A stretch of 55,555 nt of DNA from Palleronia rufa (GTDB taxonomy: Bacteria > Pseudomonadota > Alphaproteobacteria > Rhodobacterales > Rhodobacteraceae): NCBI RefSeq assembly GCF_000743715.1, contig NZ_JQEY01000018.1, positions 156-55,710 on the forward strand, written 5' to 3'. The stretch's first letter is position 1, and every line of letters begins with the position of its first letter. The translations under genes and the position numbers were made by a program. Below the pieces are notes generated by a model, which had not been told where the DNA came from, did not search any database, and was given only the letters and a program-made list of their open reading frames with translations. Shown here piece after piece: positions 51,424 to 54,822 of this stretch.

Positions 51424-52713
51424 CTACGCGGCCAGGAATGGGATGGGAATGCCGAACACAGCCGCAAGCAGGACGAAATTCAACGCCAGAACCGCACAGG
51501 CCCCCAATCTTGCCAGAAGGCGCAAGGTTACGCCGGGGATGAAATCGCCCATGATGTCCCGGCGCGACGAGAAGATGATCAGAGCGATCATCGGGACCGG
51601 AAGCGCGATGGAAAGGACGACCTGACTCATGACAAGCGCCTGCGTCGCGTTAGCACCCATGCCGACAACCGCGAAGGCGGGCACCATGGTCACCAGACGG
51701 CGTATCCAGATCGGAACATGGAAATGCAGGAATCCCTGCATGATCATCTGCCCGGCCATGGTCCCGACGACAGAACTGGATATGCCCGAAGCGATGAGAG
51801 AGGCCAGGAACATGCCAGCCGCCGCCGCACCCAGCAGCGGCGTCAGGGTGTGATACGCGGTCTCGATCTCGGCGACCTCAGAATATCCCTGGTGAAAGGC
51901 ACTGGCGGCCATGATGACCATCGCGATATTGACCATGCCCGCGACAGCCAGCGCCAGAACGACCTCCACGTTGGAATAGTTGAGGATTTTTCGCCGATCC
52001 CGATCGTTTCGGATGTCCGCGCGCGATTGCATCAAGCCTGAATGCAGATAGATCGCATGCGGCATCACCGTGGCCCCGATAATTCCGACGGCGATGGTCA
52101 GGGCCGCGGCGTCGGGTACCATCGGTTGCATCAGGCCAAGACCCGCCGCAGCCCAGTCGACCGGGGCAATGAGCATTTCCGCAAGGTAGGACAGGCCGAT
52201 CACGCCCACCATCGCACCGATGATCAGCTCCATCGGGCGAAAGCCCTGGCCTTCGAAGATGAGGATCGCGTAAGTCACGATCGCGGTGATGACCATGCCG
52301 ACGAGCAACGGCAGCCCGAACAGAAGCGACAGCCCGATCGCGCCGCCAAGAAATTCCGCCAGATCCGTGGCCATCGCCGCCACTTCGCTGATGACCCACA
52401 TGATCCACACGACCGGTTTCGGGAAATTGTCACGCGACAGTTCGGCAAGATTCTTGCCTGTCACGATGCCCAACCGCGCGGAAAGCGCCTGGAACAGCAT
52501 CGCGATGAGGTTCGCAAGAAGTACCACCCACAGCAGGGAATACCCGTATCCCGCACCCGCCTGGATGTTCGTCGCGTAGTTGCCCGGATCCATGTAGGCG
52601 ACCGAGGCGATGATCGCCGGTCCGGCGAAGACCAGTTTGCTCCGCCATCCCCGGCGCTCCCCGCTCAGGACACCCGCGATGCCGCTGCGTGTTCTGTTGG
52701 TAAGGTTCTGCAT
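51424..52713 (-). CDS. mntH: Manganese/divalent-metal transporter (NRAMP, MntH)
   Basis: A 429-residue inner-membrane proton-coupled importer with about 11 helices. Seen: the metal-binding first motif AYMDPGNYATNIQAG and the helix-6 motif VGIIGATVMPHAIYLHSG, both hallmark NRAMP blocks, and ATDLAEFLGGAIGLSL. The ATG at 52713 is chosen; a TTG at 52728 is the alternative. It is divergent from mntR, and a near-palindromic element (52746-52759) sits 33 nt upstream of the start, so manganese repression is likely. Confidence 0.94.
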   Translation of the reverse strand: MQNLTNRTRSGIAGVLSGERRGWRSKLVFAGPAIIASVAYMDPGNYATNIQAGAGYGYSLLWVVLLANLIAMLFQALSARLGIVTGKNLAELSRDNFPKPVVWIMWVISEVAAMATDLAEFLGGAIGLSLLFGLPLLVGMVITAIVTYAILIFEGQGFRPMELIIGAMVGVIGLSYLAEMLIAPVDWAAAGLGLMQPMVPDAAALTIAVGIIGATVMPHAIYLHSGLMQSRADIRNDRDRRKILNYSNVEVVLALAVAGMVNIAMVIMAASAFHQGYSEVAEIETAYHTLTPLLGAAAAGMFLASLIASGISSSVVGTMAGQMIMQGFLHFHVPIWIRRLVTMVPAFAVVGMGANATQALVMSQVVLSIALPVPMIALIIFSSRRDIMGDFIPGVTLRLLARLGACAVLALNFVLLAAVFGIPIPFLAA

Positions 52714-52745
52714 GGCATCTTCCGGCAAGTTTCGAAGACCGAAAC

Positions 52746-52759
52746 ATAGCTATGGCTAT
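52746..52759. promoter_or_regulatory. Putative MntR operator near mntH
   Basis: atagctatggctat is a 14-bp near-palindrome with the core AGC-x-ATGGCT. It lies 33 nt upstream of mntH and shares its core with 52824-52837. Confidence 0.7.
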
Positions 52760-52823
52760 AATTACTGCAAGGGGCACTATATGGTCGTGTTATGTTCTGA
52801 TCCAGTTTCGGTTGGTGAAATAC

Positions 52824-52837
52824 TCAGCCATGGCTAT
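52824..52837. promoter_or_regulatory. Putative MntR operator near mntR
   Basis: tcagccatggctat contains the perfect 10-bp palindrome agccatggct and lies 37 nt upstream of mntR. The shared core with the site at 52746 suggests one regulator acts on both divergent promoters. Confidence 0.7.
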
Positions 52838-52874
52838 AGGGTAGCTCCGCCAACACCGTTCGCTGACAGGACAC

Positions 52875-53321
52875 ATGTCGAACACACGCCCTTCCGATAA
52901 AAAGCAGGCCGACCATTTCGCGCGCGCGCGCGAAGCCCAGTCCGTCGCGCTGCTTGAGGACTACGTGGAGATGATCGGGGATCTTCACGAGGAGTTGGGG
53001 GAGGCGCGTGTCGCCGATCTGGCGCAGAGAATGGGGGTGGCCCAACCGACCGCGACCAAGGCGATCGCCCGGCTCAAGCGCGAGGGGCTGGCCACCTCGC
53101 GGCGGTACCGTGGCGTGTTCCTGACCGAAACGGGCGCGGCGCTGGCAATGCGGGTCAGAGCGCGGCATCGTACGGTCGTCGCATTTCTCGTGGCTGTCGG
53201 GGTCCCCGAGGACGTCGCCGAAATGGATGCCGAGGGGATCGAACATCATGTGTCCCGCCATACGCTGACCGCGTTCGAGGATTATCTGGCGAACCGGCTC
53301 GCGGCAGATCATCGCCCCTAG
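52875..53321 (+). CDS. mntR: Manganese-responsive regulator MntR (DtxR/MntR family)
   Basis: A 148-residue regulator with an N-terminal winged HTH (LEDYVEMIGDLHEELGEARVADLAQRMGVAQPTATKAIARLKREGL) and a dimerisation/metal domain around AEMDAEGIEHHVSRHTLTAFEDYL, whose Glu and His residues are in the positions expected of the metal site. It has no C-terminal SH3-like domain, as in MntR. The gene is divergent from mntH, which it probably represses when manganese is plentiful. The start at 52875 follows GACAGGACAC; the ribosome-binding site is weak. Confidence 0.9.
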   Translation: MSNTRPSDKKQADHFARAREAQSVALLEDYVEMIGDLHEELGEARVADLAQRMGVAQPTATKAIARLKREGLATSRRYRGVFLTETGAALAMRVRARHRTVVAFLVAVGVPEDVAEMDAEGIEHHVSRHTLTAFEDYLANRLAADHRP

Positions 53322-53445
53322 GTCTCGTACGCTGGCGCTTATACAGCGTCGCATAAGCTACATGCCGCTGTTTTACTTCGATCCTTGACCGCATCTGGAG
53401 GGCACCGCCGCGACCCGGTCGCGGCTCAACCCGAAAGGATAAGAC

Positions 53446-53697
53446 ATGCGCAAGTTTTTGATTGCCACCGCGATGGTCGCCGCCCTGCCCGCTCTTGCCG
53501 CGGAAGTCACAAAGGACGCCCAGCTTGGTACGACGATGGACGAGGTCAAGGCCAGCCTTGTCGACATGGGCTATGACGTCCGCAAGGTGAAGATGGAAGA
53601 TGGCGAGATCGAAGCCTATGCCGTGATGGGCGACACGCTCAGCGAAGTGTTCGTCGATCCGGCAACAGGTCAGGTCACGAGAATCGTGGCGAAGTGA
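53446..53697 (+). CDS. PepSY-domain periplasmic protein
   Basis: An 83-residue protein with a signal peptide (MRKFLIATAMVAALPALA) and a short PepSY domain (TTMDEVKASLVDMGYDVRKVKMEDGEIEAYAVMGDTLSEVFVDPATGQVTRIV). PepSY proteins often bind or inhibit and many occur with cytochrome b561-like proteins. AAAGGATAA lies just before the ATG. It is 7 nt upstream of a cytochrome b561-like gene, so the three genes 53446-54822 form one operon. The ligand or partner is unknown. Confidence 0.85.
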   Translation: MRKFLIATAMVAALPALAAEVTKDAQLGTTMDEVKASLVDMGYDVRKVKMEDGEIEAYAVMGDTLSEVFVDPATGQVTRIVAK

Positions 53698-53704
53698 TCC
53701 CGTC

Positions 53705-54289
53705 ATGCTGAGGGAACACTATCTTGGCAGCGGGCGCGACAGCGCCCGCAGCGGCAAGACGATTCAGGTCTGGGATCCGTTGGTCCGCCTGATCCACTGG
53801 GGCGTCGTCCTCATGGTTGTGATCAACGCCGCCATCGTCGCGAAAGACAGCCAACTCCACCTTTGGGCGGGCTACACGATGCTGGTGCTTGTCGGGGTCC
53901 GACTGCTCTGGGGGGTGATCGGCACTCGGCCCGCGCGGTTCGCGGCCTTCCCACCGAATCCGTTTCGGGCACTGGACTACGTGAAAAAAATGCGACGCAG
54001 TGACAAGACCGTGCATCTGTCACACAATCCGCTCGGAGCCTTGATGGTCTACAATATCTGGACGACGCTGCTGTTGATCGCAACGACCGGCTACATGATG
54101 GGCACGATAAGGTTCTTCGGTGTCGTCTGGGTAGAGCGGGCGCACGAGCTGGCATATGACTGGTTGCTGGTGTCGATTGCAGCCCATATCCTGGGGGTTG
54201 CCTTCGATATATGGCGTTCGGGTGTCCCGCTTGTTCAGGCGATGATACACGGCGCCAAGCGCATCCCGAACGATACGCCGGTCGAATGA
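53705..54289 (+). CDS. Cytochrome b561/b-type membrane protein
   Basis: A 194-residue inner-membrane protein with four or five helices. Seen: WDPLVRLIHW (His31), HLWAGYTML (His52), HNPLGALM, ERAHELAYDWLLVSIAAHILGV (His147, His161). These are the ligand pattern of two b hemes seen in cytochrome b561 and Ni,Fe-hydrogenase-type cytochrome b. It would transfer electrons between the quinone pool and a partner, perhaps the PepSY protein or an external redox protein. Its stop overlaps the start of the next gene (ATGA). Confidence 0.85.
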   Translation: MLREHYLGSGRDSARSGKTIQVWDPLVRLIHWGVVLMVVINAAIVAKDSQLHLWAGYTMLVLVGVRLLWGVIGTRPARFAAFPPNPFRALDYVKKMRRSDKTVHLSHNPLGALMVYNIWTTLLLIATTGYMMGTIRFFGVVWVERAHELAYDWLLVSIAAHILGVAFDIWRSGVPLVQAMIHGAKRIPNDTPVE

Positions 54290-54822
54290 AAAACGGTCTG
54301 CAACTCTCCAGGAACGACAGGCGGCGGGCAGCGACGCTCGCCGTCATCATTCTGGTGCAGGCGCTCTGTGCCGCATTCTTTTTCAGCGATGTCGTTTCCG
54401 ACTTCAAGTCCGACAAGTATCTGAGTGAGGTCCATTTCTATATGGAGGCGATTGCAACGCTCGTACTGATTGCCGGCGTCGTTTTTCTTATGATCGAATT
54501 GCGCAAGATCATGACCCGTATGGAACAACTGGATCGCGGGCTGCGTGCCGCCCGCGGCGAGATGGCAGAAATCATAGATGCGTTTTTTGAGGAGTGGGAT
54601 CTGACGCCATCAGAAAAAGACGTTGGGCTGCTCATTCTCAAAGGATTCGACAACGAGGCGATATCGCAACTTCGCGGGACCGCGGCGGGAACCGTCAGGG
54701 CACAATCGACGCGCATCTATTCAAAGGCCGGTGTCGAGAGTCGCGCCCAGCTGTTCAGTGTGTTTCTCGATGAGTTGCTGGCCGGTGAGGGTCGGCAAGA
54801 CGGAGGGGATCTCAAGGCATGA
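54286..54822 (+). CDS. Membrane-anchored LuxR-type HTH protein
   Basis: A 178-residue protein with two predicted membrane helices (about residues 17-37 and 54-73), a coiled, charged linker (RTRMEQLDRGLRAARGEMAEI region, about 75-100) and a C-terminal GerE/LuxR-type HTH (LTPSEKDVGLLILKGFDNEAI...GTVRAQSTRIYSKAG, about 106-150). The HTH has the LTPxE and VRxxxxRIYxKxG features of the family but no receiver or autoinducer domain. The start at 54286 overlaps the cytochrome b stop, so it is translationally coupled to a heme protein. A redox-linked, membrane-bound regulator is a reasonable inference. Confidence 0.82.
   Translation: MKNGLQLSRNDRRRAATLAVIILVQALCAAFFFSDVVSDFKSDKYLSEVHFYMEAIATLVLIAGVVFLMIELRKIMTRMEQLDRGLRAARGEMAEIIDAFFEEWDLTPSEKDVGLLILKGFDNEAISQLRGTAAGTVRAQSTRIYSKAGVESRAQLFSVFLDELLAGEGRQDGGDLKA

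Follow-up and report, generated by a model that had tools for sequence, protein, structure and literature searches.

A PepSY protein, a cytochrome b561 and a membrane-tethered LuxR-type protein encoded in one operon: a candidate co-component regulator in Palleronia rufa and its relatives

Near the end of a 55,555-nucleotide stretch of Palleronia rufa DNA (contig NZ_JQEY01000018.1; the whole stretch is called the window here), genes for a PepSY protein, a cytochrome b561 and a LuxR-like protein follow one another on one strand. The locus raises the question of what might pass between a membrane cytochrome and a DNA-binding protein tethered to the membrane, and what part a PepSY protein could have in it. 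The original prediction described the operon as a compact redox-to-transcription device, in which the cytochrome or the PepSY partner could signal directly across the membrane to the LuxR head.

Operon layout and protein architecture

The operon has the layout that had been predicted for it (Table 1). The genes stand in the order PepSY, cytochrome, LuxR, with 7 nt (53698-53704) between the first two, and the last two share an ATGA overlap (54286-54289) composed of the cytochrome stop codon TGA and the LuxR start codon ATG. The mechanical open reading frame of the LuxR gene opens further upstream, at 54211. The start at 54286 is supported by its recurrence, since an in-frame ATG or GTG giving a 4-nt overlap is possible in 20 of 45 cytochrome-LuxR pairs, the window's included.

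Directly upstream of the operon (51424-53321) are mntH on the minus strand and an MntR-type regulator gene on the plus strand, and the gap between the mntR stop codon and the candidate operator is 6 bases. Downstream of the LuxR gene lies an integrase-core (IS-type transposase) remnant, and the last base of the window is the end of the contig. A phage origin of the operon was considered and rejected, there being no DNA-level match in a phage collection. A perfect inverted repeat with 9-base arms and a 1-base gap occupies 53407-53425, between the operator and the PepSY start, and could form an RNA hairpin; a similar stem was seen by eye at the equivalent place in two other loci (L031 and L217).

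Table 1. Features of the operon and its upstream region (window positions)
Feature	Position	Strand	Basis
PepSY_2 protein, 83 aa, predicted periplasmic	53446..53697	+	Pfam, hydropathy
Cytochrome b561 (PF01292), 194 aa, 4 hydrophobic helices, 4 invariant helix His (two-heme type)	53705..54289	+	Profile, alignment
Membrane-tethered LuxR/GerE regulator, 178 aa	54286..54822	+	Pfam, hydropathy, AlphaFold2
Candidate operator palindrome TACGC-TGGC-GCTTA	53328..53341	+	Alignment with relatives, de novo family motif
Third half-site TAAGC, 12 nt after palindrome	53354..53358	+	Read from sequence

The first gene product matches the Pfam family PepSY_2 (49.6 bits against a cut-off of 24.3). The single feature from which a periplasmic location is predicted is a signal-like hydrophobic segment at its N-terminus (residues 4-22, by hydropathy). 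With that predicted location, the protein is the kind of partner that co-component systems have, one with a periplasmic domain encoded beside the regulator. It has no cysteine, which rules it out as a thiol redox sensor, and thiol chemistry in PepSY is therefore not the signal here. When the last 72 residues of the PepSYs from 41 trios were compared, 30 had no cysteine and nine had two; two cysteines are also present in all four PepSYs beside cytochromes that have no LuxR gene (L191, L193, L195 and L196).

The cytochrome matches Ni_hydr_CYTB in Pfam (69.3 bits, cut-off 30.1), and hydropathy gives it four transmembrane helices. Among 27 aligned cytochromes, His 31, His 52, His 147 and His 161, together with His 107, are invariant. 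We take the first four to be the four helix histidines, with the heme-ligand role that they have in the family. In profile, helices and histidines the protein is a prokaryotic cytochrome b561 (PF01292) of the two-heme type. No relative of it (P0002) was found in a sequence search of solved structures at E up to 0.1. Its AlphaFold2 model (pLDDT 88, pTM 0.83) has FdnI and the E. coli superoxide oxidase as its best fold matches.

The LuxR-like protein has one Pfam domain over the cut-off, GerE (25.2 bits, cut-off 23.5). The predicted absence of a receiver, kinase or autoinducer domain was borne out, in that none is among the Pfam matches with E up to 0.1. The protein is consequently outside the LuxR-type quorum-sensing class, which has an autoinducer-binding domain, and it has the composition of a membrane-anchored one-component regulator, with a DNA-binding domain and transmembrane segments in one chain and neither kinase nor receiver. 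Its N-terminal half is two transmembrane helices (hydrophobic segments at residues 15-33 and 52-70). The AlphaFold2 model has helices at 2-41 and 48-103, followed by the helix-turn-helix (HTH) (mean pLDDT 88, pTM 0.63). This suggests a layout of two transmembrane helices joined by a short loop, presumably on the periplasmic side, a long linker helix and a C-terminal HTH. The modeled HTH resembles those of response regulators, for example that of NarL bound to DNA (1je8), with a best E of 0.02; a sequence search of solved structures gave no relative of the protein (P0003) at E up to 0.01. A partial match was obtained to NCBIfam NF047608, the LIC13292 family of transcriptional regulators (residues 39-168, E 5e-14). 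The likeness extends over the second transmembrane helix and the HTH, and membership was rejected, the score of 52.7 bits being far under the curated cut-off of 200. The term LIC13292 was not found in the literature searched.

Conservation and distribution

The neighborhood survey confirmed that the three genes are conserved together. Thirty best-match cytochrome loci, the window included, were fetched within the family; PepSY is present at all 30 and a LuxR gene at 26. Among 74 cytochrome matches listed and compared by hand, an adjacent LuxR match accompanies 32 of the top 39 and one of the other 35, and in that single case (G017) the LuxR match is on the opposite strand. Because the same order and strand recur across many genera while the flanks differ (10 loci inspected), the arrangement is beyond chance. 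At L191, which has no LuxR gene, the cytochrome gene is divergent from a gene for an OmpR-type response regulator, which points to a possible exchange of the regulator.

Five other families of the class have the trio as well (L118, L120, L121, L122 and L124). Cytochrome and LuxR genes without a detected PepSY gene were found in two more families (L123; L151 and L152) and in another class (L157). The trio was also found on three plasmids; one, the mobilizable plasmid L218 of Paracoccus fistulariae, has a length of only 7,465 bases and counts a VIT gene besides the trio among its cargo. G066, the only congener of the window's genome covered by the searches, had no LuxR or cytochrome match. Given these last two observations, the module looks patchy and mobile.

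A gene of the VIT family of iron/manganese transporters directly follows the trio on two plasmids (L217:5161-7221 and L218:2184-4303) and, by Pfam, at L035:3170-5298, and tblastn found a VIT relative after the LuxR-less PepSY-cytochrome pair at L191:1224-2732. VIT genes are present at only five of 221 loci, two of which are the same place, and iron or manganese as a general function was rejected on that ground. At L214:5712-8486 and L216:6455-8487, genes read by eye as a cytochrome bc1 (petABC) operon precede the trio in the same orientation. Two genomes of other families (L197:5462-8176 and L198:1812-4489) have a tethered LuxR gene after genes for a b561-type cytochrome, a DUF1924 (SHP-like) protein and a DHC protein; the cytochrome is itself a DHC fusion, by Pfam at L197 and by eye at L198.

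From the LuxR side, P0003 has a match at E 1e-3 in 106 of 149 genomes of the same family, some of these being matches to the HTH only. Our sample consisted of 30 plus 80 loci fetched among the P0003 matches listed, four named loci, and loci from the class, phylum and cytochrome searches; the weaker of the listed matches, most of them partial or confined to the HTH, and matches beyond the listing were not taken in. After removal of duplicates, 146 distinct tethered LuxRs scored at least 80 bits with the family profile, a threshold that excluded 20 of the 52 loci of one wider search. Both PepSY and cytochrome genes accompany 41 of these LuxRs, a cytochrome gene only accompanies four, a PepSY gene only 77, and neither 24. 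A same-strand PepSY gene is thus found within about 1.5 kb upstream at 118 of the 146 and a cytochrome gene at 45, a share too high for the family at large because the sample was built outward from the sequences most similar to the window proteins. Of the two partners of the tethered LuxR, PepSY is the more constant, and the cytochrome is optional.

A FastTree phylogeny of 114 members was split (support 92) into 49 rows containing all 35 cytochrome-linked members and 65 without a cytochrome, most of which have one or two PepSY genes. The cytochrome label changes about 8 times on the tree, versus 30 with shuffled labels. Many cytochrome-less members are near genes read by eye as trpF/trpB and pth, in clusters that comprise 37-49 loci. 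In a sister family (L019, L026, L030 and many of L037-L114, for example L058), one or two larger PepSY genes precede the tethered LuxR gene; the sister family has no cytochrome and often carries the operator TAAACC-NN-GGTTTA. At L107 no PepSY gene was detected, and the gene directly before LuxR appears by eye to encode a secreted, acidic product that has EF-hand-like repeats. One genome (L117/L143) has two different PepSY-LuxR pairs, convergent tail to tail.

A candidate operator and its likely reach

Upstream of the operon is a palindrome (Table 1) that is one base off the consensus TAAGC-N4-GCTTA and has one broken pair. Its weight comes from conservation in relatives and not from rarity in the window, where the pattern is no rarer than chance (1.45 matches expected, two strand matches, both at this site). 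The upstream regions of six trios, when aligned, contain invariant stretches. The TAAGC half-site that follows the palindrome could instead be part of a -10 element.

An unbiased scan covered all palindromes with 5-base arms and gaps of 0-8 in 145 upstream zones, none longer than 500 bp. (The 146 LuxRs give 145 zones because zones were keyed by locus identifier and L117/L143 holds two LuxR genes.) The top two palindromes, both at gap 4, were TAAAC-N4-GTTTA, in 31 zones with 1.2 expected, and TAAGC-N4-GCTTA, in 12 zones with 0.11 expected, the expected counts being taken from the rest of the same loci. Across the 145 zones and gaps of 0-8, no other word outside the motif TAARC-N4-GYTTA came near these counts. 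As a control for base composition in the words themselves, the 19 other orders of TAAAC totaled 2 and the 59 of TAAGC totaled 1, and the TAAAC and TAAGC words at other gaps were found at most once.

The exact motif is present in 44 of the 145 zones and, within 800 nt, at 57 of the 145 loci: 11 of 41 trios, 1 of 4 with a cytochrome only, 41 of 76 with PepSY only, and 4 of 24 with neither. Exact sites are absent from most trios, being found at 12 of 45 cytochrome loci. Among 44 cytochrome-type regions (three plasmids included), the TAAGC form was found with at most one mismatch in 21 and with at most two in 27, and there was none in 17. Of 58 exact sites, 14 have a TAARC word at exactly +12 nt, and 10 of these 14 belong to cytochrome loci; the inexact site of the window is outside these 58. 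A related TRAACYNNRGK element, a pattern written after these very sequences had been viewed, accompanies 11 of the 23 LuxRs that have His 140 instead of Gln 140 (0.27 expected). A separate perfect operator for this His 140 clade was not found. An ACCGAA-N5-TTCGGT palindrome is present in five of the 23 His 140 loci, and the three positions viewed were more than 400 nt ahead of where the scanned region ends.

The occurrence of the site with LuxR in trio, PepSY-LuxR and partnerless settings is the reason that we assign it, as probable, to LuxR. The tethered LuxR probably binds DNA beside its own operon, at this candidate operator, and the conserved upstream site suggests that the anchored protein controls that operon.

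The variable base of the motif follows a residue of the recognition helix. Residue 138 is lysine at all 42 loci with exact TAAAC sites and arginine at 14 of 15 with TAAGC, the lone exception being L144 (Lys 138), which has a mixed site. With one mismatch allowed and ambiguous loci, L144 among them, left out, residue and base agree at 70 of 71, pairing lysine with A and arginine with G. The pairing crosses the gene content: cytochrome trios with Lys 138 (L184, L194) have TAAAC, and cytochrome-less loci with Arg 138 (L021, L036, L125, L154) have TAAGC. Residue 138 has changed independently only one or two times on the tree, so the covariation is not independent evidence. It is consistent with, and no proof of, a contact between residue 138 and the variable base. 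We take position 138 to correspond to a base-contacting lysine of NarL.

LuxR probably has few targets, chief among them its own operon. Twelve genomes with Arg 138 LuxRs, ten of which were chosen since the site was already known there, hold 19 exact TAAGC sites, 10 of which precede a tethered LuxR gene by at most 1.5 kb; a reversed control pattern has 37 matches in the same genomes, and the TAAGC palindrome is thus not in excess genome-wide. Twelve genomes with Lys 138, most of which had already shown a site, hold 12 sites of the stricter form TAAACYNNRGTTTA, seven of which lie equally close before a tethered LuxR gene, with 4 for the reversed control. Each of the 24 genomes scanned has 0-3 exact copies. 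Because exact copies are rare and often upstream of a tethered LuxR gene, the target looks mainly local. In the window's own genome, a genome-wide regulon was rejected: the only further exact palindrome, at C3:152996, looks by eye like a longer hairpin, and tolerating one mismatch gives 60 strand matches, where the reversed control pattern reaches 271.

Proposed mechanism, alternatives and known systems

We consider it reasonably likely that LuxR and PepSY form an autoregulated co-component transmembrane regulator whose regulated redox output is the cytochrome b561. The operon would then be a self-contained, autoregulated circuit from periplasm to promoter. PepSY, as the co-component, would dock on the short periplasmic loop of LuxR or on its transmembrane hairpin, and a periplasmic or membrane condition would set it free or bound. 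Its state would alter the dimerization of two tethered HTH heads on the TAARC-N4-GYTTA site upstream of the same operon, and the main output would be the operon itself, that is, the dose of cytochrome b561 and PepSY. The cytochrome would most likely link the quinone pool by electron transfer to a donor or acceptor in the periplasm (superoxide, a metal or another protein), and may feed its own state back to PepSY or LuxR. We infer three parts of this scheme: the binding of LuxR to the site, PepSY as the input partner, and the cytochrome as a regulated redox enzyme. Modulation of LuxR by PepSY would have precedents, since DbfQ, a small periplasmic PepSY protein encoded beside a kinase gene, binds the sensor domain of that kinase, DbfS (parts of PMC12714742); co-component regulators are also described in parts of PMC10269533.

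As regards the redox-to-transcription reading, the conserved trio and the probable binding of LuxR to DNA beside its own operon, as deduced from the candidate site, speak for it, and what does not stand is the cytochrome as the general sensor of the family. PepSY is more constant (118 versus 45 of 146) and the operator occurs at 4 of the 24 partnerless loci, which argue against such a sensor. The cytochrome is more simply explained as an output under regulation, or as an extra input in certain clades; that it also reports its redox state is a possibility, in view of L197 and L198, where the same LuxR family comes after a b561-type cytochrome. That the cytochrome b561 itself is the redox sensor, signaling directly to the tethered LuxR in the membrane with PepSY as an accessory, seems to us decidedly unlikely. 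The recurrent 4-nt overlap (20 of 45 pairs) would agree with this, as would the four of 45 cytochrome-LuxR pairs with no detected PepSY, one of them at a locus of another class (L157/L208), and the presence of the same LuxR family after the DUF1924, DHC and b561-type cytochrome genes of L197 and L198. The cytochrome gene, however, is not directly upstream at 101 of the 146 tethered LuxRs, yet operators of the same type occur there, and the cytochrome-linked LuxRs are confined to one half of the tree, but with about 8 gains or losses. A joint version, in which a diheme quinone-reactive cytochrome b and PepSY together gate a membrane-tethered LuxR that binds only its own promoter, we regard as unlikely. 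If true, it would be a third architecture for sensing membrane electron flow, in which a redox enzyme monitors the electrons passing through it and adjusts its own amount with no kinase, receiver or second messenger.

Plain local regulation is, in our judgment, a somewhat unlikely account. LuxR would sense another cue, such as membrane stress or a small molecule, the enzyme under its control would be the cytochrome, perhaps acting as a superoxide oxidase or an electron donor, and PepSY would serve the cytochrome. The retention of PepSY with the cytochrome at all four LuxR-less loci fits this, and so does the closeness of the cytochrome model to FdnI and the E. coli superoxide oxidase. PepSY, however, is also kept beside LuxR where the cytochrome is absent (77 of the 146 loci) and is therefore tied to LuxR independently of it. 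It appears quite improbable that the operon is an iron or manganese module, in which PepSY binds the metal, the cytochrome reduces it and LuxR controls export or uptake. The VIT genes that continue the operon on the plasmids L217 and L218 and in L035, the VIT relative at L191, and the mntR and mntH genes adjoining the operon in the window would suit such a module, but the VIT count given above is low and no mntR or mntH stood out by eye among ten loci inspected. Very improbable, finally, is the binding of the upstream palindrome by another regulator, with LuxR acting elsewhere: the residue-base covariation is phylogenetically weak, but the site accompanies the LuxR family in varied settings, the four loci without PepSY and cytochrome included, and its variable base tracks a recognition-helix residue. 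One family thus offers a constant PepSY partner, a defined candidate operator and an output that in some clades is a redox enzyme, and makes it directly testable how a membrane-held HTH locates and controls a promoter.

ToxR and TcpP have the partner proteins ToxS and TcpH. The co-component regulators ToxR, TcpP and VtrA/VtrC, as portrayed in parts of PMC10269533, combine a membrane-anchored DNA-binding protein with a partner and lack a kinase, as does the system here, which differs from them in its two transmembrane helices, C-terminal GerE HTH, PepSY partner and diheme cytochrome. The same survey notes that tests exist for few transmembrane transcription regulators, about 57% of which possess no domain other than the DNA-binding one; the words LuxR, GerE, PepSY and cytochrome are absent from its main text. 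The SHP/DHC/cytochrome b operons with Orf1-RR-SK1 share with the present operon a cytochrome b, a periplasmic accessory protein and a dedicated regulator, but their regulators are mostly sensor kinase/response regulator pairs in the parts of PMC2909971 concerned, unlike the tethered LuxR; LuxR and PepSY are absent from the text of that paper. The window operon was rejected as a member of that group, its flanks being PepSY, LuxR, an MntR-type regulator and the integrase-core remnant, with no DUF1924 or DHC gene beside the cytochrome. In the literature searched, judged mostly by titles and abstract openings, the combination of PepSY, cytochrome and tethered LuxR was not found; PMC4373377 names a cytochrome b561 in Dinoroseobacter, in passages that do not name LuxR or PepSY.

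The nearest likeness on the PepSY side is to the DbfQ-DbfRS and BqsS-type modules, in which, as here, one or two small periplasmic PepSY genes lie directly upstream of the gene for a membrane signal transducer (parts of PMC12714742, whose text does not contain "cytochrome" or "one-component"). Their transducer is a kinase with a response regulator, and here one tethered HTH protein replaces both. The type of regulator is known; what appears to be new is a PepSY co-component with a LuxR-headed transmembrane regulator, joined in this branch to a cytochrome b561. The role of PepSY proteins, published as that of a direct regulator of a histidine kinase, would be widened by their association here with one-component regulators.
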